Under the pieces are notes generated by a model. It was not told the origin of the DNA, did no database searches, and saw nothing but the letters and a program-made list of their open reading frames with translations. Shown here piece after piece: positions 1,587 to 22,632 of a stretch of DNA of 42,120 bases. Made by a program: the position numbers and the translations under genes. The DNA is taken from positions 1-42,120 of the forward strand of contig CASGAD010000027.1 in NCBI GenBank assembly GCA_949299335.1, given 5' to 3'. The first letter of the stretch is position 1, and each line of letters starts with the position of its first letter. This DNA is from an uncultured bacterium. GTDB lineage: Bacteria > Bacillota_I > Bacilli_A > RFN20 > CAG-826.

Positions 1587-1597
1587 AGAGGTAGTAA

Positions 1598-2839: not shown

Positions 2840-2886
2840 AAGCAGTTAATTAAGCCTAAATTTATTATAAAAGTAAAATAATTTGT

Positions 2887-2899: not shown

Positions 2900-3639
2900 T
2901 GAACGAAATTTATAAAAAAACTTTTACTTTAACTAATAATTTATATGATAGAACCGACACTCTTAAACCATCTAGCATTTTTGATTTATCACAAGAAATT
3001 AGTGGTAATCATGCTGATATTTTGGGGTGTGGTTTTATAGATTTTATTAATAAAGGATTGATTTGGGTTATAGTTAGAAATTATGTAGAATTTATTAAGC
3101 CAATTAGACATCATAGTAGTTTAAATTTAGAAACTTATTTATTAAAACCAAGATTTGTAGAATTTCCTCGAGAAGTTCGCTTTTATGATGAAAATAACGA
3201 TTTACTCGCTGTTTCTAAGTCTATTTGGATGATTTTAGATACTAAAAATTTTGATGTTATGACTCCTGATATATTCAATAATATTGATTATAGTGTTGTG
3301 CCAACTTATTTTAATAATAGATTAAAAAAGCTACCTCTTATTGACAAAGAAAAATTAAGCTTTAATAAAGAATTTTATGTAACTTATTCTATGCTTGACC
3401 ATAATGGACATTTAAATAATACCCATTATTTAGATTTCTTTTTGGATGTTTTTATGCCAAGTAAAGATATTAAGTCATTACAAATTGAATATGTTAAACA
3501 AGGATTTTTAGGCGATAAAATCGCTTTATTTACATATAAAGAAAATGGCAAAGATTATTTATATGGTTATAAAGATAAAGATTTAATTTTTTATATGGAA
3601 GTAAGCTATATGGAGGAAAAACAAAATGAAAATAAATAA
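2899..3639 (+). CDS. Acyl-ACP thioesterase (FatA/FatB-like)
   Basis: This 246-aa double hotdog-fold enzyme releases fatty acids from acyl carrier protein. The first hotdog contains the WVIVRNYVEF and EFPREVRFYDENN strands and the SIWMILD motif of bacterial acyl-ACP thioesterases. The second half carries DHNGHLNNTHY, matching the catalytic Asp-x-Asn-x-His-x-x-Asn signature. The length is normal. The start has no SD but sits exactly 7 nt after a TATAAT box, suggesting a leaderless message. The stop overlaps psuG by 14 nt, so the three genes 2899-5428 are one transcription unit, an odd pairing of lipid and nucleoside functions. Confidence 0.85.
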   Translation: MNEIYKKTFTLTNNLYDRTDTLKPSSIFDLSQEISGNHADILGCGFIDFINKGLIWVIVRNYVEFIKPIRHHSSLNLETYLLKPRFVEFPREVRFYDENNDLLAVSKSIWMILDTKNFDVMTPDIFNNIDYSVVPTYFNNRLKKLPLIDKEKLSFNKEFYVTYSMLDHNGHLNNTHYLDFFLDVFMPSKDIKSLQIEYVKQGFLGDKIALFTYKENGKDYLYGYKDKDLIFYMEVSYMEEKQNENK

Positions 3640-4534
3640 GGTAATTAGTGAAGCTTTAAAAGAAGGAAAACCTGTTGTTGCCTTGGAATCTACGATTATC
3701 TCTCATGGTATGCCTTATCCTAGAAATGTAGAATGTGCTTTGGCAGTTGAAAAAGTAATTAAAGAAAATGGTGCGATTCCAGCGACAATTGGAATTATTG
3801 ATGGAGAACCAATAATTGGTATGACCCCTGAAGAAATTGAGGAATTCGGAAAGAAAAAGGGAATTGCTAAATGTTCAAGAAGAGATTTACCTATTATTTT
3901 TGCTACAAAAAAGTGGGGAGCAACAACTGTTAGTGCGACAATGATTTTAGCCTCGTTAGCTGGCATAGAATTTTTTGTAACTGGCGGAATCGGTGGTGCT
4001 CATAGAAAAGCCAATGAAACCTTTGATGTTAGTGCGGATTTAGATGAATTAGGAAAAACAAACGTTAGTGTTATTTGTGCAGGTCCAAAAGCGATTTTAG
4101 ATTTACATTTAACAATGGAATATTTAGAGACTAAAGGTGTGCCTGTAATTGGCTATAATACAGATAATTTACCAGCTTTCTTTACCAGAACAAGCGAACT
4201 TAAAGTTGATTATAATGCTAAATCACCTTTAGAAATTGCAAAAATTATTAAGTGTAAAAGAGATTATAAACTTGATGGCGGAGTTTTAATTTGCGATCCG
4301 ATTCCTGAAGAATATTCAATGGATAGTAATTACATTAATCAAGAAATTGATAAAGCACTTAAAGAAATGGAAGAAAAACACGTTACAGGAAAAGACGAAA
4401 CCCCATTCTTGCTTTCTAAAATAGTAGAGCTAACTGGCGGAAAGAGTCTTGATACAAATATTCACTTGATTTTAAATAATGCCAAGTTAGGCGCTAAAAT
4501 CGCATGTGAATATGCTAAATTAAGAAAGGAATAA
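3626..4534 (+). CDS. psuG: Pseudouridine-5'-phosphate glycosidase
   Basis: PsuG splits the C-C glycosidic bond of pseudouridine 5'-phosphate to uracil and ribose 5-phosphate. The 302-aa protein has the family's N-terminal ALESTIISHGMPYPRN motif, the ATIGIIDGEP segment and the GGIGGAHR loop, so the call is secure. A GGAGG site lies inside the end of the thioesterase gene, upstream of the ATG. The pseudouridine kinase gene follows after 3 nt, giving the complete two-step salvage of pseudouridine from RNA turnover. Confidence 0.95.
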   Translation: MKINKVISEALKEGKPVVALESTIISHGMPYPRNVECALAVEKVIKENGAIPATIGIIDGEPIIGMTPEEIEEFGKKKGIAKCSRRDLPIIFATKKWGATTVSATMILASLAGIEFFVTGGIGGAHRKANETFDVSADLDELGKTNVSVICAGPKAILDLHLTMEYLETKGVPVIGYNTDNLPAFFTRTSELKVDYNAKSPLEIAKIIKCKRDYKLDGGVLICDPIPEEYSMDSNYINQEIDKALKEMEEKHVTGKDETPFLLSKIVELTGGKSLDTNIHLILNNAKLGAKIACEYAKLRKE

Positions 4535-5433: not shown

Positions 5434-5487
5434 GGCACCAGATAAACTACTTTAATATTAAAGTTGTTTATTATGGTGCTTTTTTTC
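5434..5487 (+). terminator. Rho-independent terminator after psuK
   Basis: A long imperfect hairpin pairs GCACCA with TGGTGC at its base, continues with GATAAAC/GTTTATT and ACTTT/AAAGT, and is followed by seven T. The downstream galM promoter starts immediately after the T-tract. Confidence 0.85.
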
Positions 5488-5497
5488 TCAATCTTAA

Positions 5498-5507
5498 ATG
5501 TTATAAT
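5498..5507 (+). promoter_or_regulatory. Extended -10 promoter of the gal operon
   Basis: TGTTATAAT is an extended -10 element (TGN plus TATAAT). No good -35 is seen because that position is filled by the upstream terminator T-tract. It lies 29 nt before the galM start. No CRE-like site is visible here, unlike at mglB. Confidence 0.55.
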
Positions 5508-5535
5508 AAAATTGGCATATCGTGGAGGATATAAG

Positions 5536-6519
5536 ATGAAATACAATGTTGAAATGTATAAAGACAATATTGCTTTAATTCACGTAGATAATGAATTGAA
5601 TCTTAAAGCAACTTTAGTCTCTTTTGGTGCAGGTGTTTACGCCTTAAGTTTTAAGGACAAACCAGTAATTTTAACTCTTAGGGATATTGAAGACTATTTA
5701 TATTCAGCTCAATATTATGGAAAGACATTAGGCTCAGTTGCTGGTAGGCTTAAAAAAGATGGATTAATTGATGGAGTCGAATACCATTTAGTTCCTGAAA
5801 TTGGCAAAAATTTTGCTTTACATGGAGGAATGCTAAAGTCAATTTCTTATAAAAACTGGGATTATAAAATTAAAGAAACTAATAAAAAATTAGATGTGAC
5901 TTTTTCATTCTCAACAAGAAATAATGAGGGTGGTTATCCAGGTAAAACAAGAATTTATGTTACATATTCATTTTTAAAGAATAAAGATGAATTTAAATTA
6001 TTATTTAAAGCAACTACACCAAGTGATGCCGTATTTTGTAATCTCTCCAATCATATGTATTTTAATTTTAATACACATGATATAAGTGATTATTATCTAA
6101 AGATGAATGTTAACGAAGTTGCAGTGACCGAACCTAATTTATTAATTATTGATAAAACTGCTGTCCCTGCACATTTAGATTTTAATAAGGCTAGTAAATT
6201 AAATAAGAGAATGGAATACATCGAAAAACACGACTTTAAAAAGACAATCGATGATACATTCATCTTCTCTTCAATGCCAGGGAAAGTCACTTTAAGTAAT
6301 AATGAAGTTAAACTTGATATTACAACTGACTGTAGTTCAATGAATATCTATGTTGATAACTCATTAACTCCTGTTAAGTTTACTGCAAGAGATGATTACG
6401 ATATGAGACGTGGAATTGCTCTAGAGCCACAACGTTTCCTATTAAATAAAGATGAAATAATTTTACGTAAGGGTGATGTTTATAAGAACTATATAGATTA
6501 TAAATTTAAGGAACGTTAA
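5536..6519 (+). CDS. galM: Aldose 1-epimerase (galactose mutarotase)
   Basis: This protein interconverts alpha and beta anomers of galactose so that GalK can use the sugar. I chose the ATG at 5536 because GGAGGA precedes it; the in-frame upstream ATG at 5464 lies inside the terminator and before the promoter. The 327-aa protein carries the family landmarks GKTLGSVAGRLKKDG, LHGGM (catalytic His), NLSNHMYFN and a C-terminal ALEPQ with the catalytic Glu. It is the first gene of galM-galT-galK with gaps of 2 nt and then a 1-nt overlap. Confidence 0.92.
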   Translation: MKYNVEMYKDNIALIHVDNELNLKATLVSFGAGVYALSFKDKPVILTLRDIEDYLYSAQYYGKTLGSVAGRLKKDGLIDGVEYHLVPEIGKNFALHGGMLKSISYKNWDYKIKETNKKLDVTFSFSTRNNEGGYPGKTRIYVTYSFLKNKDEFKLLFKATTPSDAVFCNLSNHMYFNFNTHDISDYYLKMNVNEVAVTEPNLLIIDKTAVPAHLDFNKASKLNKRMEYIEKHDFKKTIDDTFIFSSMPGKVTLSNNEVKLDITTDCSSMNIYVDNSLTPVKFTARDDYDMRRGIALEPQRFLLNKDEIILRKGDVYKNYIDYKFKER

Positions 6520-6521
6520 AA

Positions 6522-8048
6522 ATGATTTTGGATACGATTGATAATTTAGTTTTATATGCAAAATATCATCTAGATTTAGATGATGAGTTAGATCAGATTT
6601 ATTTGCGTAATGCGTTATTAAACGAACTTAATTTGCCTCATCCAAATAATGAATTTAATTATAAAGATGAAGAGGAAATTAAAAAGAGTATTGTCCCAGA
6701 TAAATTAATCGATGAATTAAATTCCTATTTTATGAATGTACTAGGAATGAATGAAAAGGATGCAGAACTTAAATACACTAAAATCATGGGATTACTAACT
6801 AAGAGTCCTAGCGAAGTAAATAATAAGTTCCAAACTATCTACAAAAGTAAAGGCGATAAAGAAGCTTTAGAATATTTATACGATTTATCAATAAAAAATT
6901 ATTATTTCCAAAAAACTAAAGTTGATAAAAATATTGTTTGGAGTACACAATATCCTTCTAAAAATATCGAGGTTAGTATTAACCTTTCTAAACCAGAAAA
7001 AAGCAATAAAGATATTGCTAAATTATTAGTGAAACCTAGCCCAAGTGAAATTAAATATCCTAAATGTTTACTTTGCTTAGAAAATTTAGGTTTTGCAGGG
7101 AATTATTCTCATCCAGCTAGAGAAAATATTCGTGTAATTCCTTTATCATTAAATAATGAAGAGTGGTATTTGCAATATTCTCCTTATGGTTATTTTTATA
7201 AACATTGTATAGTTTTTTCAAAGAACCACTCTAACATGGTTATTAATAATGGTACCTTTAAAAAACTTTGTGACTTCGTTGATAAGTTCCCTTCATTTTT
7301 TATAGGATCCAACGCTGATTTGCCTATTGTTGGTGGCTCTATTTTAAATCACGAACATTATCAAGGCGGTGAACATTTATTACCAGTAATGAAAGCTAAA
7401 ACTAAAAAAGAGTATAAGTTAGCTAATTATAAAGAAACTAAACTATATAAGTTAGATTGGTATAATACATGTTTACTTTTAACATCTAAAAATAAAGATG
7501 AAATCGTAGAAATTGCTACAAAAATCTTAGAGGCATGGAGAGATTATGATGATGTTAATAACGATATCATTTCTCATAGTGGCGAAACTAGACACAACAC
7601 AATTACTCCATCAATTAGAAAAGAAAATGATACTTATTATCTATACTTAATTTTACGTAATAATAGATGCGATGAAAAATATCCTGATGGTATTTTCCAT
7701 GCTCATAAAGAGTATCATCATATTAAAAAAGAAGGTATAGGAATTATTGAAGCGATGGGTTTATTCATCCTTCCTGCTAGATTAATTAGACAAGAAAACG
7801 AAATTAAAGATGTACTTAATTTAGGTCTTACAAAAACTCAAATTTTAGAAAAATACCCTGATTTAGCAGACTTTTTAGGTATGATTAATGAATTGAAGAC
7901 TAATTATAATAAAGATACTATTGATAAAGACATTAATGCTTATATCGAAAATGTTTGTCAAAATATATTGATTAATACAGCAGTATTTAAAGATAATGAT
8001 ATCGGGATTAAAGGTCTTGATACATTCATAGGAGGTTTAAAACTATAA
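6522..8048 (+). CDS. galT: UDP-glucose--hexose-1-phosphate uridylyltransferase, Firmicutes type
   Basis: GalT transfers UMP from UDP-glucose to galactose 1-phosphate, the central step of the Leloir pathway. The 508-aa length and sequence match the Gram-positive GalT type, which is longer than the roughly 350-aa enterobacterial type. The catalytic region is GGSILNHEHYQGGEH, with the H-x-H nucleophile. Further landmarks are CLLCLENLGFAGNYSHPARENIR and the C-terminal FHAHKEYHHIKKEGIGIIEAMG region. The SD AAGGA lies in the end of galM. The enzyme needs UDP-glucose, which galU at 26059 can supply. No galE is present in this window. Confidence 0.93.
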   Translation: MILDTIDNLVLYAKYHLDLDDELDQIYLRNALLNELNLPHPNNEFNYKDEEEIKKSIVPDKLIDELNSYFMNVLGMNEKDAELKYTKIMGLLTKSPSEVNNKFQTIYKSKGDKEALEYLYDLSIKNYYFQKTKVDKNIVWSTQYPSKNIEVSINLSKPEKSNKDIAKLLVKPSPSEIKYPKCLLCLENLGFAGNYSHPARENIRVIPLSLNNEEWYLQYSPYGYFYKHCIVFSKNHSNMVINNGTFKKLCDFVDKFPSFFIGSNADLPIVGGSILNHEHYQGGEHLLPVMKAKTKKEYKLANYKETKLYKLDWYNTCLLLTSKNKDEIVEIATKILEAWRDYDDVNNDIISHSGETRHNTITPSIRKENDTYYLYLILRNNRCDEKYPDGIFHAHKEYHHIKKEGIGIIEAMGLFILPARLIRQENEIKDVLNLGLTKTQILEKYPDLADFLGMINELKTNYNKDTIDKDINAYIENVCQNILINTAVFKDNDIGIKGLDTFIGGLKL

Positions 8049-9208
8049 TGACAACCGAAGAAATGAAAAAAGAGTTTTTAAAACTTTATAAAGAAGAGCC
8101 ACATTATTATATCGATACAGGTGGAAGATTTGAAATTTGTGGCAACCATACAGACCATAATCATGGATTATGTTTAGTTGCTAATTGTTCTTTAAGAATT
8201 AAAGCTGTAGTAAATAAGAACCCTAATTTAGTAAGAGTATTAAGCAAAGGGTATAAGTACTTTGAATTTGATATTTCAGATTTGGCATATAAAAGCACCG
8301 ACTATCCAGCGACTATGGCTATTGCTAGAGGAATCTTATTTAAACTTAAAGATTTAGGTTATAAGATTGGTGGATTTGACGCTTATATTTCTAGTGAAAT
8401 TCCTGATGGAAGTGGCGTAAGTAGTAGCGCAGCAATTGAATCATTATTTGGGTATATTATTTCTTATTTATATAATGATAAGAAAATAACACCGTTAGTA
8501 GTTGCTAAGGTTGGTCAATTTAGTGAAAATAATTATTTCAAAAAACCTAGTGGGTTATTAGATCAAATTGGAACATCTTATGATAGTTCTAACTTTATTG
8601 ATTTTAAAAATATTGACGATCCAGTTATAGACACTTTGCCATTTGATTTACCTTTAACACTATATTTAATTAAAAGTGTTGGTGATCATGCAAATTTAAC
8701 TCCTTTATATGCTGCTATTCCAAATTCAATGTATAAAGTTGCAGGATTATTAGATAATCAAAAGTTCTTAAGAGATTGTAATGATGAGAATGTATTTACT
8801 AAAATTGATAATTTAAATGTTGACGATAGTGTAAAAAGAAAGGCAAAACATTTCTTTATTGAAAATGAAAATGTTAGACATGCTAAAAAAGCTATTGAAG
8901 CTAAAGATGTAGAAGGATTTTTAAAAGCAATTAGAGATTCTCAAAATTCAAGTAATGCAAATTTAGAAAATACGTTTGTTAGAGGCGAGTTTGAAGGTTC
9001 ACCTCAAGACATCATAGAAAATGTTTCTAATTTTATTAAAGGCCATGGCGCAATAAGAATACATGGTGGAGGATTTAAAGGAACTGTTCTTGCTTTCATC
9101 AAAAATGATTTCGTTAACGAGTTTGATGAGTTTGTAAAGGTTAATTATCCAGGTAAATATTATAAAGTTGTTATTTCACCTAAGGCTGTGAATTATAAAG
9201 AGTTCTAA
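8048..9208 (+). CDS. galK: Galactokinase
   Basis: GalK phosphorylates alpha-D-galactose at C1. This 386-aa GHMP kinase has the galactokinase signature GGRFEICGNHTDHNHG near residues 23-38, the ATP loop DGSGVSSSAAIE and the C-terminal GGGFKGTVLAF motif. Its ATG overlaps the galT stop by one base (TAATG) and AGGAGG lies upstream inside galT. It ends the gal operon at a strong bidirectional terminator. Confidence 0.95.
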   Translation: MTTEEMKKEFLKLYKEEPHYYIDTGGRFEICGNHTDHNHGLCLVANCSLRIKAVVNKNPNLVRVLSKGYKYFEFDISDLAYKSTDYPATMAIARGILFKLKDLGYKIGGFDAYISSEIPDGSGVSSSAAIESLFGYIISYLYNDKKITPLVVAKVGQFSENNYFKKPSGLLDQIGTSYDSSNFIDFKNIDDPVIDTLPFDLPLTLYLIKSVGDHANLTPLYAAIPNSMYKVAGLLDNQKFLRDCNDENVFTKIDNLNVDDSVKRKAKHFFIENENVRHAKKAIEAKDVEGFLKAIRDSQNSSNANLENTFVRGEFEGSPQDIIENVSNFIKGHGAIRIHGGGFKGTVLAFIKNDFVNEFDEFVKVNYPGKYYKVVISPKAVNYKEF

Positions 9209-9243: not shown

Positions 9244-9821
9244 TATTTTAAAAAATACTTGTCATTATTTAATAACTTGTCCCATGTTTCAAGTTGCTTT
9301 TTGCTTGGGACAAAAATATAATCATAATTTCTTCCTAATTCATTATAGTCAAAGCCATAGCCAACTAAGAATTTATTTTGTGTTAAACTTACACCAACAA
9401 CATCAGCGGTTAAATCTACTTTTCTAAGTGGCTTTTTATCAATTAGACATACAATTGTGATTGATTTAGGTTGATAATTAAGTTGAATATATTGCTTTAA
9501 ATAATTAAGGGTTAAACCTGTGTCGATAATGTCTTCAACAATATAAACATCTTTTCCTTTAATATTTTCGCTTATATCTTTTTTTAAGTGAATAACTCCG
9601 GTTGATGAAGTGCCACTATAACTAGAAACTTGAATAAAATCAACTTTCATTTCAAATTTACACTTTTTAATTAAGTCATTGAAAAAAGGTTCAGCGCCCT
9701 TTAATACACTAATAAAAACAGGGATTGTAGTTTGATTTTCAAATCTTTTGTTTAACTTATTTGCAACTTCACTTGCAATTTCCTCAATTTGCTCTTTACT
9801 AAAAATAACCTCATTTGTCAT
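9243..9821 (-). CDS. hpt: Hypoxanthine(-guanine) phosphoribosyltransferase
   Basis: This 192-aa enzyme makes IMP or GMP from hypoxanthine or guanine and PRPP. It shows the PRPP-binding motif YIVEDIIDTGLTL near residues 90-102, the flexible-loop region VSSYSGTSST and FLVGYGFDYNELGRN near the C-terminus, all typical of hypoxanthine PRTases. Size is normal. It is a single-gene unit on the minus strand with a GAGGTAA SD before the ATG. It converges with galK and diverges from the mgl operon. Confidence 0.92.
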   Translation of the reverse strand: MTNEVIFSKEQIEEIASEVANKLNKRFENQTTIPVFISVLKGAEPFFNDLIKKCKFEMKVDFIQVSSYSGTSSTGVIHLKKDISENIKGKDVYIVEDIIDTGLTLNYLKQYIQLNYQPKSITIVCLIDKKPLRKVDLTADVVGVSLTQNKFLVGYGFDYNELGRNYDYIFVPSKKQLETWDKLLNNDKYFLK

Positions 9822-9939
9822 AAAATTACCTCAAAAAGTATCTTCTATCATATTGTTTTATTTTTTAAAAATCACGAAAAATAATCGATTAAGTCGAAAA
9901 ATTAATTTTGTTTTAATGCGATTTAAGGCATTTTAGGCC

Positions 9940-9960
9940 CTTATAAATATAATTTATAAG
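9940..9960. repeat. 21-bp perfect palindrome CTTATAAA-N5-TTTATAAG
   Basis: Arms at 9940-9947 and 9953-9960 are perfect inverted repeats with a 5-bp centre. No T-tract follows, so it looks more like a dimeric operator than a terminator. It lies about 120 bp 5' of the hpt start and 170 bp 5' of mglB. The regulator is unknown. Confidence 0.4.
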
Positions 9961-10002
9961 AGTCTTGTTTAAAATAGTGATATTTTGTTTCAAAGTAGAA
10001 AA

Positions 10003-10034
10003 TTTTACATTAAGTTTAGAGATTTTTACATTTA
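10003..10034. promoter_or_regulatory. Direct repeat, candidate AraC-type operator
   Basis: TTTTACATT plus A/T-A occurs at 10003 and again at 10024, exactly 21 bp apart, so both copies face the same side of the helix. Directly repeated half-sites two turns apart, just upstream of a promoter, are typical of AraC-family activators such as the YesN-type regulator at 18338. Assignment to that regulator is inference from proximity and function. Confidence 0.4.
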
Positions 10035-10040
10035 AATCAG

Positions 10041-10054
10041 TGTAAGCGCTTTCA
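10041..10054. promoter_or_regulatory. CRE site for CcpA upstream of mglB
   Basis: TGTAAGCGCTTTCA matches the catabolite response element consensus TGWNANCGNTNWCA at every position. It lies 74-87 bp before the mglB start, at or just upstream of the likely promoter, so carbon catabolite control by CcpA-HPr is expected. No ccpA is in the window. Confidence 0.85.
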
Positions 10055-10091
10055 TAAAATATTTATGTATTGAGAAGCAGTCTTTTGAACG

Positions 10092-10113
10092 CTTCCTAGG
10101 AATTATTAGGAGG
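10092..10113 (+). promoter_or_regulatory. Hairpin over the mglB ribosome binding site
   Basis: CTTCCTA (10092-10098) can pair with TAGGAGG (10107-10113) in a 7-bp stem with one G-T pair and an 8-nt loop. The 3' arm contains the only SD (AGGAGG), which is also unusually far (14 nt) from the ATG. Masking of the SD, or mRNA stabilisation, is possible. Confidence 0.35.
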
Positions 10114-10127
10114 AAAAATAAAAAATT

Positions 10128-11378
10128 ATGAAAAAGAAATTAATTCCAATGTTCGCACTCGGTTTATTCGGCATTTTAGCAACATCATGTTCACAAAAAA
10201 CATGGAATTGGGAAGATGCATCAAGTGACGGAGTCTTAAAGTATGCTCTTTTAATTGGCCAAATCGACCATAATGACTCAGCTGCTAGAACCGCTGGTAT
10301 TCGTGAAGCTTTAGGAACAAGACCTACAGAGCACAAAACAAATGCAAATACTGAAACAGCAGTTGAAGGAAAACTTACTTTAGGTGGAACACAATATACA
10401 GTAAAAGAAGTCGCTTCAGGTGAACAAAAATCAACAGCTGGTGCTACTTGGGATCAACAAACAGCAACAACTTCAACAGAAGCTTGGCTTAATGCTAATC
10501 CAGATATCGATTTCTTTGTATCAAACAATGATGGTATGGCTGAAGGCGCTATTGGTGCTAGTAACTGGGTAGAAGGAATGCCAATTTTCGGTTATGATTC
10601 TAACCAATCAACATTAAGCTATATTAAAGATGGCAAAATTATGGGTACAGTTAACCAAAACGCACCTGCACAAGCTGCAGCAATTTATATGGCAGCTAGA
10701 AACGCTATCGATGGTAAGACTGGCGCAGATGTTTACACTGAAGGATTTACAAAAGATTCAAGTGGTGGTTATGGTAAGATTGGTTCAACAGTTAACTATA
10801 ACTCAAAAGATCATTCATTATTAGTCGACAACGTCGCAGTTACAGCAGCAAACGTCGATTCATTTATGACAGATGATATTACATCATTAGCAGAAGCTGG
10901 TGTTAAAAAAGGTACTACACCAAAAGTTAAAGTATGGCAATCATACTATTCAGAAACAGATACCTTCTTAACAACTTCAATGCAACCATTATTTGAATAC
11001 TATAAAGGTTTATTCAATTTTGATGTTACAGTTGCTAAAGGTGATGGCAGTGATGATACAAAGAGCTTAGGTTTACTTGATACAGCATTAGGTTCAGGAG
11101 ATTACGAAGCTTACATTATCAACATGGTTAAGACAACAAGTACACAAAGTTACTTAGATAAGATTGCTGATTCATTAAAAGCAACAGAAACTAACCCAAC
11201 CGATGTCCCAATTATCTTCTGGAACAGACAAGGTACAAATGATGATGGCACAACCGATACAGTAAATATGGCTGATGCTAGATTCAAGACAATCTTATAC
11301 GTTGGATTCGACGCTATTCAAGGTGGCGAATTACAAGGTGAAATGATTGTAGATTACTTTGAAAATCTTGCTAAATAA
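10128..11378 (+). CDS. Galactose/glucose-binding lipoprotein, circularly permuted MglB
   Basis: This 416-aa substrate-binding lipoprotein belongs to the Mgl-type ABC transporter. The signal peptide ends in LATSC (Cys21). The parts of MglB are all present but in swapped order. Residues 30-200 match the second half of MglB: a DxSxDG calcium-loop-like start, YALLIGQIDHND, TTSTEAWL, FVSNNDGMAEG, PIFGYDS and MGTVNQNAPAQAA. Residues 265-416 match the first half: PKVKVWQSYYSETDTF, VPIIFWNRQG and YVGFDAIQGGELQG, the last near the very end. The homologue at 21622 has the normal order. It is followed by mglA and mglC with a hairpin between, and preceded by a CRE. Binding of galactose is inferred from the operon and from the gal genes next door. 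Confidence 0.85.
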   Translation: MKKKLIPMFALGLFGILATSCSQKTWNWEDASSDGVLKYALLIGQIDHNDSAARTAGIREALGTRPTEHKTNANTETAVEGKLTLGGTQYTVKEVASGEQKSTAGATWDQQTATTSTEAWLNANPDIDFFVSNNDGMAEGAIGASNWVEGMPIFGYDSNQSTLSYIKDGKIMGTVNQNAPAQAAAIYMAARNAIDGKTGADVYTEGFTKDSSGGYGKIGSTVNYNSKDHSLLVDNVAVTAANVDSFMTDDITSLAEAGVKKGTTPKVKVWQSYYSETDTFLTTSMQPLFEYYKGLFNFDVTVAKGDGSDDTKSLGLLDTALGSGDYEAYIINMVKTTSTQSYLDKIADSLKATETNPTDVPIIFWNRQGTNDDGTTDTVNMADARFKTILYVGFDAIQGGELQGEMIVDYFENLAK

Positions 11379-11395
11379 AATTTAAATTATACGTT

Positions 11396-11430
11396 TAAAC
11401 AAGTCCATTTGCTTAGCAATGGACTTGTTG
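11396..11430 (+). terminator. Intercistronic hairpin mglB-mglA
   Basis: AACAAGTCCATT and AATGGACTTGTT form a 12-bp stem with an 8-nt loop, followed by only a weak T-rich run (GCTTGTG). This is probably a partial terminator or mRNA-protecting hairpin that keeps the binding protein in excess over the transporter, as in many binding-protein operons. Confidence 0.6.
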
Positions 11431-11449
11431 CTTGTGAGAAGGAATTATT

Positions 11450-12949
11450 ATGGAGAACAAATACATACTAGAAATTGATGGATTATCAAAATCTTTCGGT
11501 AAGAATAGAGTTTTGAAAGATATACATCTTCATGTTAAACCAGGAGAAATCCTTGGATTAATGGGTGAAAATGGTGCTGGAAAATCTACAATGATGAAGT
11601 GTCTTTTTGGTATTTATTCTCGTGATAGTGGAACCATTAAGTTAAATGGAGAAACTATTTCATTTTCTGGACCTAAAGAAGCATTGGAAAAAGGTGTCGC
11701 AATGGTTCACCAAGAACTTAATCAATGTCTTGATAGAACTGTTTTAGACAATATGTTTTTAGGAAGATATCCTACTCGTGGCGGATTAATAGTCGATGAA
11801 AACATGATGTATGATAAGTGTATTAAATTATTTAATGAACTTGATATAAATCAAAGTCCAAAAACTATCATGCGTACTATGTCAGTCTCTCAAAGACAAA
11901 TGTGTGAAATAGCTAAAGCTGTTTCTTACAATTCAAAAGTTATTATTCTTGACGAGCCTACATCTTCTTTGTCAGAAAGAGAAGTCAAAAAGTTATTTCA
12001 AATTGTTAGAAAATTAAAAAGCAAGGGAATAAGTTTCGTATTTATTTCTCACAAAATGGATGAGATATTCGAATTATGTGATCAAGTCGTTATTTTACGT
12101 GATGGCGCAGTCACTTTAGATAAACCAGTTAAAGAAACAGATTTAAACGAATTAATCAAAGCAATGGTTGGTCGTTCTTTAGAATCACGTTTCCCGCCTC
12201 TAACAAATACTCCAGGTGAAACGGTTTTAACTGTTAAAAATCTTTGTACAAAATATCAACCTCGATTAGACAATGTTTCTTTCGACTTGAAAAAGGGCGA
12301 AATTTTAGGAATCTATGGCTTAGTTGGTGCTGGTAGAAGTGAATTATTAGAGTCACTTTTTGGTGCTAGAACAGTTTCTGAAGGTGAAATTATTTATAAT
12401 GGTAAAAGAATTTTATTTACTTCACCTAAAGAAGCTATGGATGAAAATTTTGCATTAGTTACTGAAGAAAGAAAAATTAATGGTATGTTTGGCAAAGAAG
12501 ATTTAGTTTATAACACATGTATTACTAACATTGATAAATACAAAACATTTGGTGTTATTTCTGAATTAAAAATGAAAAATGCTGCTGAAAAAGAAGCAAA
12601 AGCAATGCATGTCAAATGTACTTCAGTAAATGATAATATTTCCGCTTTGTCTGGTGGAAATCAACAAAAAGTTATTATTGGTAAATGGCTAGAAAGAAAT
12701 CCAGATGTATTCTTGATGGATGAACCTACAAGAGGTATCGATATTATGGCTAAATATCAAATTTACGAATTGATGATTGAACTCGCTAATAAAGGAAAGA
12801 GTATTATCATGGTTTCAAGTGAAATGCCAGAAATTCTAGGCGTCACAAATAGAATTGTAGTTATGTCAAACTACAAAGTAGCTGGCGTAGTTAACACAAA
12901 AGAAACAAATCAAGAAGATTTGCTTAGACTTTGTGCAAAATATTTATAG
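11450..12949 (+). CDS. mglA: Galactose/methylgalactoside ABC transporter, ATP-binding protein
   Basis: This 499-aa protein has two fused ABC domains, as usual for the sugar CUT2/Mgl class. Domain 1 has Walker A GENGAGKST near residues 39-47, a VSQRQ signature region, and Walker B VIILDEPTSSLS. Domain 2 has the family's degenerate Walker A YGLVGAGRSE, the signature LSGGNQQK and Walker B VFLMDEPTRGID. It energises uptake together with the permease 12 nt downstream. AAGGA precedes the ATG. Confidence 0.92.
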   Translation: MENKYILEIDGLSKSFGKNRVLKDIHLHVKPGEILGLMGENGAGKSTMMKCLFGIYSRDSGTIKLNGETISFSGPKEALEKGVAMVHQELNQCLDRTVLDNMFLGRYPTRGGLIVDENMMYDKCIKLFNELDINQSPKTIMRTMSVSQRQMCEIAKAVSYNSKVIILDEPTSSLSEREVKKLFQIVRKLKSKGISFVFISHKMDEIFELCDQVVILRDGAVTLDKPVKETDLNELIKAMVGRSLESRFPPLTNTPGETVLTVKNLCTKYQPRLDNVSFDLKKGEILGIYGLVGAGRSELLESLFGARTVSEGEIIYNGKRILFTSPKEAMDENFALVTEERKINGMFGKEDLVYNTCITNIDKYKTFGVISELKMKNAAEKEAKAMHVKCTSVNDNISALSGGNQQKVIIGKWLERNPDVFLMDEPTRGIDIMAKYQIYELMIELANKGKSIIMVSSEMPEILGVTNRIVVMSNYKVAGVVNTKETNQEDLLRLCAKYL

Positions 12950-15056: not shown

Positions 15057-15839
15057 TTATTTAGTTTGCAAATCAAAGATATTTTTAACAAATTGAGAAG
15101 TGACATTAATACCTTTAAGCATAGCATTAACATCAGCTTCATCGTTTAAAAATAAATAGACTTTATTACTTATAAATGAGATTTTAAAATCAAAAATAAA
15201 GTCAGAATACATTGTTCTTTCTTTGCGTTCTTTAGTAGGAGCGAAAAGTAGTTTACTCATTTTAGAGAAGGAGGAATCTGATTCCTTCTTTTTATTTTGG
15301 TTACTAAAAAAGTTCGAGATAGCTTTTAATGAATTCAAGAAATTAATAAAGTAAAATTCGTTAGTAAAAATAATTTCATAAGGATTAAGTAAAAATTCAT
15401 CAAGAGTTATTGTTCCTTTAAAATGAACATCATTTTTAATTGATTCGTTAATTTTACTTTCATCATTAGTTAGGTACTTAAAATCTTTATTAAATCTATT
15501 AATGAAATTAAAAAAATTAGAATAGTTCTCATCTTTTTGAACAAACACTAAAAACTTTAATTTATTTGCTTTAAAGACTAATGAGTAGTTATTGAATTTA
15601 TCTAAAGTATTTTCATTAGTTACATATCCATCATAAGAATCCACGATTTCCTCTAATTTAATGTCTTTAGAATCTAAAGTATTTATGTTTTTTGAGTAAT
15701 TCTTTAATAAAGCAATGTTTTTGTTTTGACCATATATATCAAGTTGAAGATCATTAAAATTTGAACTTGCTACTTTAATAGAAGTAGAAAAATCTAGTGA
15801 ATTTTTAATACTATCCATATCGAAAAGTAATTTATTCAT
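15057..15839 (-). CDS. Hypothetical 260-aa protein, paralogue of the upstream gene
   Basis: This cytoplasmic-looking protein has no signal peptide. It aligns without gaps at its N-terminus with the 260-aa product of the preceding gene (15853-16635): Ser10, IK at 21-22 and Gly37 coincide, and both have a strand-helix-strand opening with an 'IYG' or 'IIGG' turn. The opening strand-loop resembles the first part of PlsX or phosphotransacetylase folds, but the catalytic part is not recognisable, so function is open. An AAGGAG SD precedes the ATG. It follows its paralogue after 13 nt, so they are co-transcribed. Confidence 0.55.
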   Translation of the reverse strand: MNKLLFDMDSIKNSLDFSTSIKVASSNFNDLQLDIYGQNKNIALLKNYSKNINTLDSKDIKLEEIVDSYDGYVTNENTLDKFNNYSLVFKANKLKFLVFVQKDENYSNFFNFINRFNKDFKYLTNDESKINESIKNDVHFKGTITLDEFLLNPYEIIFTNEFYFINFLNSLKAISNFFSNQNKKKESDSSFSKMSKLLFAPTKERKERTMYSDFIFDFKISFISNKVYLFLNDEADVNAMLKGINVTSQFVKNIFDLQTK

Positions 15840-15852
15840 AGGTATGTCTCCT

Positions 15853-16635
15853 TTAGTTTTTAATTATATTTAACGTGTTAATAATATATGAAGAGGATAA
15901 GTCCTTAGAAATCAATAAGTCTAAAACTTTATTATTAATAACACATTTAGTCTCGTAAAAATGATTATTTATAAAAATTTTTTCTGTTTTTTGAAATTGA
16001 ACAGTCATTTTAGCAAAATATGAAGCTAATGATTTAGTATCTTGAGAAGTGTAATATGTTTGGCACGATAATAGGGTTTTTAAAATAATTGAAAGAACTC
16101 TATAGTCCACAATTAATAGTTCCTCATCGTTATCAAATAATTTATCTATATCTAAAATGCCATTATAAGATGGAATATCTTTTAAATTAAGTTTTTCATA
16201 TTCATCTACAAATTGAGTAGATCCAAGTAATTTAAAAGTATCCTTTTTAGATTTTTTTAGACATATTTTTTTATAATTCAATATTTTAGAAATAGAAGCG
16301 TTTAAATTAGTTTCTAAAGGATCTATTGAAGCTAATAAACATAAATTATTTTCTTTGTTTTCTAAAATATAAAATGAATCTTTTTCAATTTTAGTTACTT
16401 CCTCTTTTAAAAGGAAATAAATATTTACTCTTTGATTATTAGAAAGAGCTAATTCATTAACGTCTTTAATAAATGAAATATTTTTAAAGTTGCGTTTGGA
16501 CAAATCACTTATTAAAGTCTGTCCACCAATGATATAAATAGGATAAGATTCATTAGTTAAAGCAAATATTTTAATTGCCTCAATGACATTAGAGGTTAAA
16601 CATGTTGAATTTAAATTAAATATGAATTCTTGCAT
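15853..16635 (-). CDS. Hypothetical 260-aa protein, first of a tandem pair
   Basis: The N-terminus (FNLNS, AIKIFA, YIIGGQTLISDL) looks like the Rossmann-like opening of PlsX-type acyl-phosphate enzymes, and the length equals that of the next gene. Similarity to PlsX is weak and by eye only. There is no SD; a TATAAT box on the minus strand (16642-16647) ends 6 nt before the ATG, so the message is probably leaderless. The small-RNA terminator lies just upstream. The gene is low in Gly and rich in Lys, Asn and Ser, suggesting fast divergence. Confidence 0.55.
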   Translation of the reverse strand: MQEFIFNLNSTCLTSNVIEAIKIFALTNESYPIYIIGGQTLISDLSKRNFKNISFIKDVNELALSNNQRVNIYFLLKEEVTKIEKDSFYILENKENNLCLLASIDPLETNLNASISKILNYKKICLKKSKKDTFKLLGSTQFVDEYEKLNLKDIPSYNGILDIDKLFDNDEELLIVDYRVLSIILKTLLSCQTYYTSQDTKSLASYFAKMTVQFQKTEKIFINNHFYETKCVINNKVLDLLISKDLSSSYIINTLNIIKN

Positions 16636-16971: not shown

Positions 16972-18249
16972 TTAGTTTGAGAGATTTGTTAAAGTGCCTG
17001 CAAAGAGGAAATTGCCATAGCTATCTTTTAAAGTAAAGATGAATCCCTTAGTTACGTAATAATCAAAATAAATTTCTTTTTTAGGCTCTGTACTAGTTGC
17101 AGCGTCTTCAATTAATGTATAACTTGCTCCTTCAATACCTACTTCATCAACATTTAAAATATTAGAATGAACAATTTTAGTAACGCAAGTTGGTAAATCA
17201 TCAAAGATGGCGTTTTCGTATGAAGGTTTAAAGACTTCATTTAAGTTATATTTTGCCTTAAAAAAATCAATTAAATCATAAGTACCGCTAGAAGAAAAAC
17301 TTGGGAAATAGATGTTGGTATAATAGGATTCTGTCTCCGTTCCAAAAGAATAAGTAGAAGAAGAAAGAATCTCATTTATATTTGATAGATTAAATATATC
17401 TTCGACCTGGTATCCTTCACTAGGCACTATGAATTCTAAAGTTAAGCCACCATTTGTTTCAATGAAAAATTTAGAATAAATTTCTTCTTCGATTGGTCTT
17501 CCAGCAATTCTATTTTTAGTTAATAATTTTACTTTTTTAATTGAACCATCTTCATTATTAAAATCGAATGTCTCAGAAGTATATTTTAATTCATTATCAA
17601 TTAGCCAAATATCTTTAAGATATAAAGTATTTAATAGAATAAAAACTGTATCTGGATTAATATTTAAATTATCGCAATTTAATAAATTATTTGTAGCATC
17701 TTTTATATATTGACTAATTGTATCTCTTGATTTTTCTTTGTCGTTAAAATCTAATCCAAAAGAATTAGTATAATATGAATTAGCTAATTTATTTAATGTT
17801 TTTTCATTATAAGAATCTTCAAAAGTGCTATTTAACCAAACTGAATTTGAGGTTGCTATTTTGTTATTACCTCTAAAATTTCTATTTAGTAAGGAGTATA
17901 AGTTACTATAATTTGACTCTATATTAATCGAGGAATCATTAAGTATGGATAAAATCTCTTTTTGAGGCTTACTAGTTAATGAGCTTTGAAGCATATTTAA
18001 AGCACTTATAATTGATGTAGGAGAGATTAAAAAATCGCTTTTATTAAATTCATAAAAGTTAGAAATTAATTCACTTTCAACATTAATGAGATTTTTTTGA
18101 TATGCTTTATAACCATCGCCATTTAATATAGAATAGTTTAAATCTATGGCTTTTGCAGCGTTTTTAATTAAATATCCATTATAATTTGCGCCACACGAAA
18201 AAATAAATAAGCTTGCAATTATTGTAGGAAATAGGTTAATTCTTTTCAT
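16972..18249 (-). CDS. Serpin (serine protease inhibitor) lipoprotein
   Basis: This 425-aa protein has a lipobox signal peptide (FIFSC, Cys19) and the serpin fold: FLISPTSIISALNML near residues 72-86, SNSVWLNSTF, FILLNTLYLKDIWL, LEFIVPSEGY and the C-terminal FIFTLKDSYGNFLFAGTL. The reactive-loop hinge is degenerate, reading DEVGIEGASYT where inhibitory serpins have EEGTEAAAAT. Inhibitory activity is therefore uncertain. A lipid-anchored serpin on a gut bacterium would face host or rival proteases. The gene starts 10 nt after an extended -10 TGCTATAAT box and has no SD. Confidence 0.9.
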   Translation of the reverse strand: MKRINLFPTIIASLFIFSCGANYNGYLIKNAAKAIDLNYSILNGDGYKAYQKNLINVESELISNFYEFNKSDFLISPTSIISALNMLQSSLTSKPQKEILSILNDSSINIESNYSNLYSLLNRNFRGNNKIATSNSVWLNSTFEDSYNEKTLNKLANSYYTNSFGLDFNDKEKSRDTISQYIKDATNNLLNCDNLNINPDTVFILLNTLYLKDIWLIDNELKYTSETFDFNNEDGSIKKVKLLTKNRIAGRPIEEEIYSKFFIETNGGLTLEFIVPSEGYQVEDIFNLSNINEILSSSTYSFGTETESYYTNIYFPSFSSSGTYDLIDFFKAKYNLNEVFKPSYENAIFDDLPTCVTKIVHSNILNVDEVGIEGASYTLIEDAATSTEPKKEIYFDYYVTKGFIFTLKDSYGNFLFAGTLTNLSN

Positions 18250-18337: not shown

Positions 18338-19951
18338 ATGTATAAAGTAATAATAGTTGATGATGAAACTTCTGTTAGAGAACGTTTATTAAGTCTCATA
18401 AATAAAATTAAAGAAAGTTTTGAAGTAATAGGAGTCTATGAAAACGGATATGATGCATTAGAAAATGGCATCCCTTTAAATCCGGATTTGATAATAACTG
18501 ATATTAAAATGCCTTATGTTAATGGCATAGAGTTAATTAAAAGAGCAAAACTTGAACTTCCATTTGTTCAATCAATTATTATTAGTGGATTTGATAGTTT
18601 TGATTATGCTAAACAAGCAATTAGTCTTGGTGTTATTGGGTATATTTCTAAGCCAATTACTTTCGAAGAATTAAGCGAAACAATGGAAAAAGCTAAGATA
18701 GAAATAGATAATAAATTGCTTTTAAATACCAATATAAAAGATTTACAAACAAATAATGATGAAGCAATGCGCTTAATTAGAGATAGCAATCTTTCTAAAT
18801 TAGTAACATTAAAAAACGCTCCTAAAGTATTCAAAGAAAAGCTTATTCAAGATGAAATAAATCTTGATTATGAAAATATCCTTTTAGGTGTATTTGATAA
18901 CGATGAAGAAAGTGAAAAAATAACTTTTGAAGACACTGAACTAGTTTCTTATTATCTAGAAAACTATTTACGAGATGAGTTAAAAGAGGCTAATTTCAAA
19001 TATATCGTTTTTCGTAACGGAAGTGATTACAACATATTTTTGTTAAGCAATGATCATTTTGATATAGAAGATATTGAAGCTAGATTTTCTAGAATAATAA
19101 TTAAAATGAAAAAAGCTACTAAAATTTCTCTATCAATTGGCTTTAGCGATATTGGAGGAGGAATTGAAAGCGACACAAGTTTTAGAAAATTATATCGTCA
19201 TGCGTGTAGGGTATTAGAATATAGGACAATTATTGGCTCTAATATTGTTTTATTTTATGATGATGTAGATAAAGGGCAATCTTCTACTGGAAAAATTGAC
19301 GATAATGAATTTAAGTCTATTAGTTACGAAATTGTTTATGGAAAAATTGATAATGCAAAAGATAAAATACATCAAATTTTAAATAACATTACTTTAGATT
19401 CTTTTAAATCCACATACTTTTTCATTTTAAATAATTTGCTTGATTGTTTACTTAAATCATGTGTCAATTTAAAGATGTTATTTAATGACTATATGCCAAA
19501 TGTTGAACTTATTCAAAAAATGGTAAGTTTAAAAACTATTGATTCAGTCATGAGCTTTTTTGATGACGTGGTAGATACAATTGATAGAATTAATAAAGTT
19601 TCTAGACAAACTGGAGTGGATAATTCATTTTTACAAATTAAAAATTATATTGAAAACAATTATAAAAATTCTACGCTCTCATTAAAAGATGTTGCTAATG
19701 AACTTGGATTTAGTGTTAGTTATATAAGTGCAATTTTAAAGAAAAACGATGTGTCGTTTACTAAATATTTAACGAAAGTTAGAATGGAGAAAGCAAAAGT
19801 ATTATTAGCAAATGAATACTATAAAATAATAATGGTTGCTAATGAAGTTGGTTATGAAGATCCTTATTATTTTTCCCATTGCTTTAAAAAGTATACTGGA
19901 ATTTCACCATTAGAGTATAGGAATAATGAGAAAAAAGAGTCACTCGATTAG
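18338..19951 (+). CDS. YesN-type response regulator, REC plus AraC-family DNA-binding domain
   Basis: This 537-aa protein has three parts. The receiver domain (1-120) has acidic Asp8/Asp9, phospho-acceptor Asp55 in ITDIKMP and Lys in YISKPIT. The middle domain (130-400) is helical and unassigned. The C-terminal AraC-type double helix-turn-helix is near 430-530 (ENNYKNSTLSLKDVANELG, GYEDPYYFSHCFKKYTG). It is transcribed with a matching YesM-type kinase and a sugar-binding lipoprotein. Its likely target is the mgl promoter, where a 21-bp-spaced direct repeat is seen. The start is leaderless-looking, with TG-T-TAAAAT ending 6 nt before the ATG and no SD. Confidence 0.9.
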   Translation: MYKVIIVDDETSVRERLLSLINKIKESFEVIGVYENGYDALENGIPLNPDLIITDIKMPYVNGIELIKRAKLELPFVQSIIISGFDSFDYAKQAISLGVIGYISKPITFEELSETMEKAKIEIDNKLLLNTNIKDLQTNNDEAMRLIRDSNLSKLVTLKNAPKVFKEKLIQDEINLDYENILLGVFDNDEESEKITFEDTELVSYYLENYLRDELKEANFKYIVFRNGSDYNIFLLSNDHFDIEDIEARFSRIIIKMKKATKISLSIGFSDIGGGIESDTSFRKLYRHACRVLEYRTIIGSNIVLFYDDVDKGQSSTGKIDDNEFKSISYEIVYGKIDNAKDKIHQILNNITLDSFKSTYFFILNNLLDCLLKSCVNLKMLFNDYMPNVELIQKMVSLKTIDSVMSFFDDVVDTIDRINKVSRQTGVDNSFLQIKNYIENNYKNSTLSLKDVANELGFSVSYISAILKKNDVSFTKYLTKVRMEKAKVLLANEYYKIIMVANEVGYEDPYYFSHCFKKYTGISPLEYRNNEKKESLD

Positions 19952-21632
19952 AACTACATTGTTTATTACGACAACGGCTTTCTTTGGGCTATTTGTTCTT
20001 TTGACTGCGGTCTCAGTTATCAGCTTGTATGTTTTCTCTGTTGGTGAAATTTTAAACGAACAAATTAGTGAGTCATCTAAGCAAGTTATTAATAATTATG
20101 AAACTTATTTTAATAATGCAATTTTAGTTTCTGATTCTATTCAAAATAAAGTTAATAACTATGATATTCGACAAAATAAAGTGGCTTTTGCAGACTATTT
20201 AGATGATATAATGTCTTTAAGAACAGAGATAAATACATTAGCATTTTATGATGGTGATGGAAAATTAATCGCAAATGACAATAAATCTAATCCGATAGAA
20301 GATGCTTTGCTAGAGGATTTTTTCATTAAAGCAAATGAAGAGCCACTAATAAATAATTTCTCTAAGTTAAATATGAATGATAATAAGTATTACATCACAA
20401 TTTCTAAATATGCTGCTTTTAATAAAGGGCTAGAACATGGAGTAATAAGGATAGATTTTGATTTTTCAAAAATTGTTGAATCCATTGCTAATACCAATTT
20501 AGGCACTACAGGTCATATTGTTATTTTCGATAAAAATTATAAAGTAATTTACTCTTCATTTCCTTTAAATATTGATCAGGATATTGACGCTTTACAAAGT
20601 ATTGTTTTAGGCAATAAATCGGAAATCATTAATGGTGTAGACTATAATATCTACGTTTCAACGATTACAAATACTACTCGGAAAGTCGGTATTTTTACAA
20701 ATAGAGAAACTATTAGCAATGCGATTAGAACATTTATAGCAACATTTGTTTCGATAAGTGTAATTTTTGTTATTGGATTTATTATACTTACTTTATTTAT
20801 TAGCGCACGATTATCTAATCCTTTAAGATTACTTAAAAGTGAAATGACTAAAGTTGAAAGTTTGAATTATGATGTTCATACTTATACGACTACTAGAGGC
20901 AGCAAAGAAGTTGAGGAACTTGACGATTCTTTTAAGCAAATGATGTTAAGAATTAAAACTTTAACTGGAAAATTGATTGAAGAACAAGAAAATCAAAAGA
21001 AATCAGAGCTAAAAGCTTTACAAAATCAAATTAACCCTCACTTTTTATACAATACTTTAGATTCTATTATTTACATGATTGATTCAGGAAAAAGTGAAGT
21101 TGCTGAAAAAATGATTACTGCGTTATCTAAATTTTTTAGAATTTCAATTTCTAGAGGAAAAACAATTATTCCATTTAGAGATGAATTTGAACATGCTAAA
21201 AACTATTTATTGATTCAAAAATTAAGATTCGAGGATAAATTTGAATATTCTTTTACTATTGATGAGAGAATTTATGATTACTATACTATTAAGCTTATCC
21301 TTCAACCTATTATCGAAAATGCTATCGCTCATGGATTAAAAGAGTATCAAGGAGTCGGTAAAATTGAAATCATTGGTACAATAGAAAACAACTTAATACA
21401 TATAGCTATTAAAGATAATGGTTATGGGATGCTACAATCAAAAATTGATCAAATCTATGAATCATTTAAAGATCCTTCAATTCATGAAGGTGTAGGAATT
21501 AAAAATATTTATGAAAGATTAAAAATTTACTATGGTGAAGAAGCTAATGTAGTAATTGAATCAACATTAGATGTAGGTACAACAATTCATATATACATAC
21601 CTACAGAAGGAGCAAAACGTCATGAACCATAA
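19926..21632 (+). CDS. YesM/LytS-type sensor histidine kinase
   Basis: This 568-aa membrane kinase has transmembrane segments near residues 11-38 and 272-297 that bracket an extracellular sensor domain of about 230 residues (Cache-like). A HAMP linker (LSNPLRLLKSEM) follows, then the His_kinase domain with NQINPHFLYNTLD (His about 371), and an ATPase with N-box PIIENAIAHGL and G-boxes DNGYGM and GVGIKNI. The start overlaps the response-regulator gene by 26 nt and the end overlaps the binding-protein gene by 11 nt, so all three are translationally coupled. It probably takes its signal through that binding protein. Confidence 0.9.
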   Translation: MRKKSHSIRTTLFITTTAFFGLFVLLTAVSVISLYVFSVGEILNEQISESSKQVINNYETYFNNAILVSDSIQNKVNNYDIRQNKVAFADYLDDIMSLRTEINTLAFYDGDGKLIANDNKSNPIEDALLEDFFIKANEEPLINNFSKLNMNDNKYYITISKYAAFNKGLEHGVIRIDFDFSKIVESIANTNLGTTGHIVIFDKNYKVIYSSFPLNIDQDIDALQSIVLGNKSEIINGVDYNIYVSTITNTTRKVGIFTNRETISNAIRTFIATFVSISVIFVIGFIILTLFISARLSNPLRLLKSEMTKVESLNYDVHTYTTTRGSKEVEELDDSFKQMMLRIKTLTGKLIEEQENQKKSELKALQNQINPHFLYNTLDSIIYMIDSGKSEVAEKMITALSKFFRISISRGKTIIPFRDEFEHAKNYLLIQKLRFEDKFEYSFTIDERIYDYYTIKLILQPIIENAIAHGLKEYQGVGKIEIIGTIENNLIHIAIKDNGYGMLQSKIDQIYESFKDPSIHEGVGIKNIYERLKIYYGEEANVVIESTLDVGTTIHIYIPTEGAKRHEP

Positions 21633-22632
21633 AAAAAGAATGATATCGTTATTGTTTTCATCTTTATTAGTTACTTCGTGTGGTACTAAAGATTATAGTA
21701 TCTCCCTATTTATCTATGATTCGACAGATACTTTTATTTTGTCCTTAAAAGATAATATATTAGATGAATTTTCGGATTTTTATAATATAAATGAAATAAA
21801 ATACGCTGAGTATAATCAAACACTTCAAAATGAACAGATTGTTAAAAGCATAAACGAAGGCAGAGATTTACTTTTAGTTAATGTCGTAGATAGATTAGCG
21901 GCAAGTTCAATTATAGAAAAAGCTGAGACTAAAAATATCCCTGTAATTTTCTTTAATCGTGAGCCATTAAGTGAAGACTTAAAGAAAGCGAACAATTCTT
22001 ATTATGTAGGCACTAGCCCTATTAAAGAAGGTGAATTGCAAGGTTCATTAATTGATGAAACTTTTAGAGGAGCCAATAATTTTGCTAATTCAAATTACGA
22101 TAAAAATAAAGATGGAAAATTATCTTTAATCATTTTAAAAGGCTCTAATGGCCATCAAGATTCTGAATTAAGGACAGAGCATTGTATTTCAACATTAAAG
22201 TCTTTAGGCTACGATATTGATATAATTTCTACTATTTATTGTGATTGGTCAAAAGAAAAAGCTAAAAACGATTTTGAACAATTATATGAGCAAAATGCAG
22301 ACTTAATTGAATTAGTTATTTCGGCTAATGATGATATGGCATTAGGTGTTATTGAATATTTAAAAAGCTTGGAAACTTACGATAGCACAATAGAAATTAA
22401 AGATCAGTTTTTTCCAATTTTTGGAATAGATGCAACTATGGTTGGCAAATTTTCTGTTTCAGCAGGAGAATTGACAGGAACAGTTATTAATGATTCAAAA
22501 GCTCAAGCTCACGCGATTAAAATATTGTCTGAATATATTCTCATGGGTGAAAGCGCAAATCGGAAAGAATTTCCTTATGAGTTTGAAGATGGAAAATTTA
22601 TTCATTTAAATCCTGAAGTTTATCGAGAATAA
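21622..22632 (+). CDS. Galactose-binding-like lipoprotein, probable sensory partner of the kinase
   Basis: This 336-aa lipoprotein (VTSC, Cys20) is of the MglB/periplasmic-binding type 1 family in normal domain order. First lobe: SISLFIYDSTDTF, IPVIFFNRE and YVGTSPIKEGELQG. Calcium loop: DKNKDGKLS. Second lobe: LIILKGSNGHQDSE, VISANDDMALG, FFPIFGID and TGTVINDSKAQA. It is coupled to the two-component genes and no permease follows, so a sensing role is more likely than transport. It also serves as the in-window reference that shows the transporter's binding protein to be permuted. AAGGAG precedes the ATG. Confidence 0.85.
   Translation: MNHKKRMISLLFSSLLVTSCGTKDYSISLFIYDSTDTFILSLKDNILDEFSDFYNINEIKYAEYNQTLQNEQIVKSINEGRDLLLVNVVDRLAASSIIEKAETKNIPVIFFNREPLSEDLKKANNSYYVGTSPIKEGELQGSLIDETFRGANNFANSNYDKNKDGKLSLIILKGSNGHQDSELRTEHCISTLKSLGYDIDIISTIYCDWSKEKAKNDFEQLYEQNADLIELVISANDDMALGVIEYLKSLETYDSTIEIKDQFFPIFGIDATMVGKFSVSAGELTGTVINDSKAQAHAIKILSEYILMGESANRKEFPYEFEDGKFIHLNPEVYRE

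Follow-up and report, generated by a model that had tools for sequence, protein, structure and literature searches.

In the 42,120-nucleotide stretch of DNA analyzed here (hereafter the window; contig CASGAD010000027.1 of assembly GCA_949299335.1, from an uncultured bacterium), the gene for the binding protein of an Mgl sugar importer, followed by mglA and then mglC, encodes a product whose landmarks stand in a rotated order. The question is whether this product is a true circular permutant of MglB and, if so, how it is related to the permuted MglB already described. The frame is intact and single, with an ATG start, 416 residues, and one lipobox (Table 1). The landmark motifs on which the original prediction was built were all confirmed, namely YALLIGQIDHND (residues 39–50) and FVSNNDGMAEG (130–140) in the first part of the protein, and VPIIFWNRQ (360–368) and YVGFDAIQGGELQG (391–404) in the last. 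The cut lies directly before the calcium loop, as had been proposed; the accompanying description of a second lobe placed first and a first lobe placed last holds for the rotated order and fails for the position of the cut, which does not separate the two lobes but falls within lobe 2, whose first strand and helix are also part of the C-terminal block. Pfam profile PF13407 reports the same rotation, with residues 37–197 matching profile positions 122–257 (i.e., the profile's second half). The MglB equivalog PRK15395 of NCBIfam matches residues 90–201 with 81.6 bits, below its curated cut-off of 420, and standard annotation thus scores the permuted protein poorly.

Table 1. Features in and around the permuted mglB gene of the window (aa, residues of its product).
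Feature	Position	Strand	Score or basis
galM, galT, galK, Leloir pathway, upstream of mglB	5464..9208	+	
cre-like palindromic site ATGAAAGCGCTTACA, upstream of mglB	10041..10055	-	0.4 expected by chance in window
Permuted MglB lipoprotein, order A-B-C-D-E-F-G (canonical E-F-G-A-B-C-D)	10128..11378	+	
Signal peptide and lipobox (LATSC, Cys21)	10128..10190	+	sequence
Leader WNWEDASSDGVLK, new N-terminus, with degenerate calcium loop DASSDG (aa 30–35)	10191..10241	+	
Modules A-B-C (aa 36–200), lobe 2 body, second half in canonical order	10233..10727	+	
Module D and linker (aa 201–262), old C-terminus fused to old N-terminus	10728..10913	+	
Modules E-F (aa 263–350), N-terminal part of lobe 1 in canonical order	10914..11177	+	PF18610 at aa 268–338
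Module G (aa 354–416), mid-protein in canonical order, N-terminal in Tp0684; its end is the first lobe 2 helix	11187..11375	+	
mglA, ATPase of the same transporter	11450..12949	+	PRK10982, 668.6 bits, below cut-off 828
mglC, permease, with N-terminal extension of about 230 aa	12962..14653	+	
MglB paralogue in canonical order, next to a two-component system	21622..22632	+	

The product is a true circular permutant of MglB, and both of its halves are recognizable in canonical relatives. A profile of the window clade was cut in two (residues 27–252 and 262–416), and each part was searched separately; both parts match canonical MglB in swapped positions, which bears out the predicted rotation. Residues 27–252 match canonical residues 211–307 (E 3e-24), with an additional weak piece at 166–203, and residues 262–416 match canonical residues 31–156 (E 4e-7), as well as residues 22–146 of the lipoprotein at 21622 (E 5e-9) and the canonical Bacilli MglB L025 (E 1.6e-24). 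The 21622 lipoprotein had been put forward as a normal-order control, and its canonical order was confirmed; it belongs to the MglB family and to the same genome as the permuted protein, but its neighbor is a two-component system, and mglA and mglC do not follow it. The MglB proteins of E. coli and Salmonella (2gbp, 1gca) and of Pasteurellaceae are likewise homologous in both halves, share the contact residues, and are encoded in an mglBAC operon, differing in their canonical order.

An AlphaFold2 model built with 16 window-type sequences predicts a two-lobed fold with confidence (mean pLDDT 89.2, pTM 0.87, block G at 90–97). Its best structural match is Tp0684 of Treponema pallidum (6bgc_B; Z 33.0, rmsd 2.5 over 309 residues), and the match is collinear only for model residues 27–347 against chain residues 66–377, ending at the moved block. 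Permutation leaves such a pattern, and the structural case rests on the point at which the collinear match stops. E. coli MglB (2gbp) gives a partial collinear alignment with the model (about 220 columns, TMq 0.36). Ribose-binding proteins and LacI also gave collinear Foldseek/VIA matches (Z about 15–16, about 250 residues), which were read as two-lobe pseudo-symmetry rather than as canonical order. Thus, neither a collinear MglB topology nor a second half closer to some other protein, the two outcomes that had been named as contrary to permutation, was encountered.

The further claim that no permuted MglB had been described is refuted by Tp0684 itself (MglB-2; PDB 5jx2, 6bgc, 6bgd), which was crystallized and found to have an "unusual, circularly permuted topology" (Brautigam et al., 2016; PMC4990184). 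Tp0684 was reported to bind D-glucose with ligand-induced closure and became the founder of a subclass of binding proteins, "Type Ic / Cluster Bc", whose other members come from treponemes and from Gram-positive bacteria of the gut (PMC4990184). It is the closest solved relative of the window protein (E 3.6e-65; about 37% identity over 309 aligned residues), and the two have in common a permuted MglB chain with joined old termini, a bilobed lipoprotein form, and the same sugar contacts. In their alignment, Tp0684 residues 80–385 correspond to window residues 30–346 and Tp0684 residues 20–73 to window residues 358–412, so that block G (VPIIFWNRQ ... GELQGEMIVDYF; about 60 residues) opens the chain in Tp0684 and ends it in the window protein. 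The ends of Tp0684 precede the VPIIFWNRQ strand in lobe 1, whereas those of the window protein precede the calcium loop in lobe 2, and the calcium site is kept in Tp0684 but unconserved in the window clade. Judged by sequence, the window protein shares with Type Ic its permutation relative to canonical MglB, descends from that subclass, and would work like it, but it is not a member by order, its termini being those of A-B-C-D-E-F-G and not of G-A-B-C-D-E-F.

Seven module profiles were used to order family members in the fetched loci: A (calcium loop and DHND), B (W..SNNDG), C (IFGYD..GTVNQN), D (linker), E (YYSETDTFL), F (INMVKTT), and G (FWNRQ..GFDA). Canonical proteins (T0), in many of which modules E, F, and D are too diverged for scoring, are joined by Tp0684-like proteins (T1) from Lachnospiraceae, Coriobacteria, one Erysipelotrichaceae genome, and others, and by proteins of the window order, which form the window-like group T2a and a distant group of mostly shorter proteins, T2b. 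In T3 (L015), start and end both fall inside module C, and T4 (L024, whose gene starts 328 bp from a contig end) begins at B and ends with A, the cut lying between the two. T3 and T4 are each known from one metagenome-assembled genome, as is L009, a protein of T1 order. The T2b, T3, T4, and L009 genes inspected in their operons each lie directly before mglA and mglC (loci L183, L180, L181, and L182, respectively). Several orders can be found within one genus: T0, T1, T2a, and T2b in the window genus (g1); T1, T2a, T2b, and L009 in g51; and T0 (G059, G071) and T4 (G080) in g35. All cuts, placed by sequence alignment, fall between secondary-structure elements of the model, that is, between helix 396–415 and strand 36–43 for the window protein, helix 336–350 and strand 362–365 for Tp0684, helix 160–167 and strand 173–176 for L015, and helix 49–62 and strand 88–99 for L024 (model numbering throughout).

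A search of related genomes, which the original prediction had suggested, recovered the window order in many separately assembled species; no full-length example was found outside the window's own taxonomic order among 395 class-level and 392 phylum-level genomes. The cut point of the window protein is new, being additional to that of Tp0684, and it is absent from the Tp0684 paper because the search for relatives reported there accepted only matching N-termini (PMC4990184). The wider series of permutations appears to be undescribed in the literature searched, a body that leaves most subscription journals outside its coverage. Two genomes (G021 and G003) also carry a second window-order paralogue (L212 in G003, L211 in G021) of about 510 aa, whose N-terminus carries an additional domain of about 150 aa.

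For tree building, all MglB proteins were rotated into one register. In the resulting tree, T2a lies inside T1 as the sister of the T1 proteins L011–L014 (support 96/90, and 97/93 after pruning of long branches), L009 lies inside T2a beside L005 (100/90) despite its T1 order, L015 lies inside T1, L024 is sister to the canonical proteins L025–L027 (100/98), and T2b stands apart. The tree of the neighboring, unpermuted MglA gives the same placement for L009 (99/96), L015 (98/84), and L024 (100/96). A single clade for all T1 proteins including L009 was rejected (p 2e-72), and a T1 clade without L009 was only borderline rejected (p 0.057), although both careful MglB trees nest T2a in T1. The data also reject T2a and T2b as one clade, and with it one common origin for the window-like order (p 0.0015, or p 0.026 with the longest branches removed). 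Some branches are long, and L135 and L136 group with T2b in the MglB tree and with T2a in the MglA tree. A quick first tree with T2b at its base had suggested that the window order might be ancestral; the careful trees and the intact calcium loop of T1 oppose this. The minimum number of order changes on the MglB tree is six, and we infer, as a conservative count, that the family has undergone five to six permutations.

Two independent fossils record this history, and the first is the calcium loop. Its D-x-N/D-x-D-G pattern is intact in every canonical, T1 (except L009), T3, and T4 protein examined, where the loop is internal, and degenerate in T2a, in the core and most of T2b, and in L009. In T2a and the T2b core, the degenerate loop is the one that the cut adjoins; L135 and L136 keep their loop and have a longer leader ahead of it. 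The original prediction held that the loop survives at the new N-terminus of the window protein. In its favor, the four calcium side-chain positions (D30, S32, D34, and D128) all carry oxygen-bearing residues, but these positions vary freely within the window protein's own clade, and survival of the site is doubtful. The second fossil is found in L009, which has no intact calcium loop despite its Tp0684 order and which contains, now internally between G and A, a window-type leader (NTDWWQHAIEDGKLTY; compare WNWEDASSDGVLKY); both would be expected had the terminal block G of a window-type protein returned to the front.

The window protein is very probably the binding protein of an Mgl importer from a lineage permuted twice, within a family that has probably seen five to six such events. 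In a first step, the canonical order would have become that of Tp0684, a linker joining the old C- and N-termini (compare the fourth crossover reported for Tp0684; PMC4990184) and new ends opening before the VPIIFWNRQ strand; in a second step, confined to the window clade, the ends would have moved one block further, coming to lie immediately ahead of the calcium loop and bringing the lipid anchor onto lobe 2. Probably, the gene was duplicated in tandem and the copies fused and then trimmed, with the signal peptide retained in front. Derived forms have no signal peptide at the old internal junction and one at the new N-terminus (commonly MKKxLIP...SCG), and tandem pairs of window-type mglB genes occur at L037/L119, L041, L042, L129, and L132; both features fit the permutation-by-duplication model (PMC3320104). 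That model was proposed for DNA methyltransferases, in which several natural permutants and intermediates are known within one family (PMC3320104); the MglB series resembles them in having permuted orders and intermediates within a family and in the proposed duplication route, and differs in concerning a solute-binding protein, in including a return to an earlier order, and in being visible inside single genera. The duplication route is put forward only as probable because no fused tandem intermediate was found; a direct-repeat scan of positions 9800–11600 for a DNA remnant of duplication gave only short, chance-like repeats. Some of the tandem window-order pairs carry long insertions, with open frames of up to 620 aa. 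Overall, mglB is likely to be permutation-prone in this gut Bacilli lineage, with four non-canonical cut points, five to six events, and one return to an earlier order, each within mglBAC.

Three other accounts of the rotated orders were considered, and each is highly improbable. That the window protein is a plain member of the described Type Ic, with nothing new about it, is suggested by its closeness to Tp0684 in sequence and structure and by the nesting of its clade inside Tp0684-type proteins; however, the end-to-end order differs by a block of about 60 residues that has changed ends, the search for relatives in the Tp0684 paper admitted only proteins with a matching N-terminus, and block G has no room upstream, where the open frame (418 aa in all) starts only two codons ahead of the ATG. 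A chimera, in which a part taken from a different gene imitates the MglB N-terminal lobe, is no more credible, although Brautigam et al. considered such an origin for the moved part of Tp0684 (PMC4990184), which is only 13% identical to E. coli MglB over about 100 residues. The moved-part profile matches canonical N-termini, both that of L025 (see above) and those of Pasteurellaceae MglB (E 4e-6 to 2e-7), and the two half-protein trees give the same result for the window clade and for the grouping of L024 with L025–L027 (the E-F-G half tree, in which the Pasteurellaceae rows lack that part, was not rooted on them). When the seven modules were compared one by one, those of L009 were without exception nearest to T2a, those of L015 to T1, and those of L024 to canonical proteins (by a narrow margin for module C); because each permutant resembles one parent clade throughout, these proteins are whole-protein rotations and not chimeras. 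Together, the split-profile matches, half trees, and module comparison rule out a foreign origin of the second half. Assembly errors, or recombination between tandem copies in metagenome assemblies, might be suspected where the T2–T4 examples are, as far as named, metagenome-assembled and where tandem mglB copies are present in some genomes, but this account is very hard to sustain: window-type genes recur in numerous species that were assembled separately, every permutant has a signal peptide only at its new N-terminus and each module once, and the inspected operons place the permuted gene directly before mglA. For the window gene itself, the single frame and the recurrence of its order in independent assemblies exclude an assembly join, as had been argued, and likewise a frameshift.

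Repeated permutation of mglB is compatible with a further proposal, that displaced termini were selected for a better placement of the lipid anchor, which is an adaptive version of a suggestion made for Tp0684 (Brautigam et al., 2016; PMC4990184). The forms are lipoproteins, and several distinct anchor positions arose, yet these are spread across both lobes, one lineage (L009) is back at the Tp0684 position, and canonical and permuted forms coexist in one genus (G059/G071 versus G080). Selection of this kind is therefore unlikely, and near-neutral drift of the ends fits the scatter, the return, and the coexistence better.

Natural circular permutants are mostly known as isolated pairs. The MglB family offers close relatives with differing ends in the same operon, some of them in one genus, together with a re-permuted relative (L009) that keeps a fossil of its former N-terminus, and such a series allows direct tests of whether the ends moved by duplication and trimming, of how well a binding protein tolerates displaced ends, and of what the position of the lipid anchor contributes. 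The bridging canonical sequences also address the doubt raised over Tp0684, as they show its moved part to be homologous to the MglB N-terminus rather than borrowed. If this history is correct, natural circular permutation is here recurrent and traceable stepwise, rather than a rare, ancient accident.

As for function, sugar contacts of E. coli MglB and Tp0684 were mapped from Table 2 of Brautigam et al. (PMC4990184). All ten positions are kept in the window protein (D278, F280, N366, H48, D50, R54, W108, N134, D157, and Q177), and each is occupied by the residue found in either E. coli MglB or Tp0684 (e.g., at position D14 the protein shares D with E. coli, and at N256 it has the Q of Tp0684). 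We infer that the protein is a galactose- or glucose-binding lipoprotein that would close on its sugar by the ordinary Venus-flytrap mechanism and dock on MglC, passing the sugar to MglA/MglC; the upstream galM, galT, and galK support galactose as the substrate. The calcium-loop end lies about 30 Å from the cleft in Tp0684 (PMC4990184), and the N-terminus of the window protein should lie in lobe 2 near that end, which would place the lipid anchor on the lobe opposite that used by canonical MglB, in agreement with the original prediction.

The surroundings of the operon add several observations. The extension of MglC, ahead of the permease domain, is charged and coiled-coil-like, and the mgl operons of L180–L183 also have long MglC forms (545–667 aa). 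Two adjacent 260-aa open reading frames, for which no Pfam match was found, lie beside the mgl operon on the minus strand (15057–16635), and frames similar in size and style adjoin mgl in L182 and L183. A lipoprotein-like serpin follows on the minus strand (16972–18249; Pfam PF00079, E 2.5e-34). At 18338–22632, an AraC-type regulator and a sensor kinase precede the canonical-order MglB-like lipoprotein, which is probably the sugar sensor of this adjoining two-component system. In L180, the corresponding cassette (108–4447), again with a canonical-order MglB-like lipoprotein, stands directly ahead of the permuted mglB.
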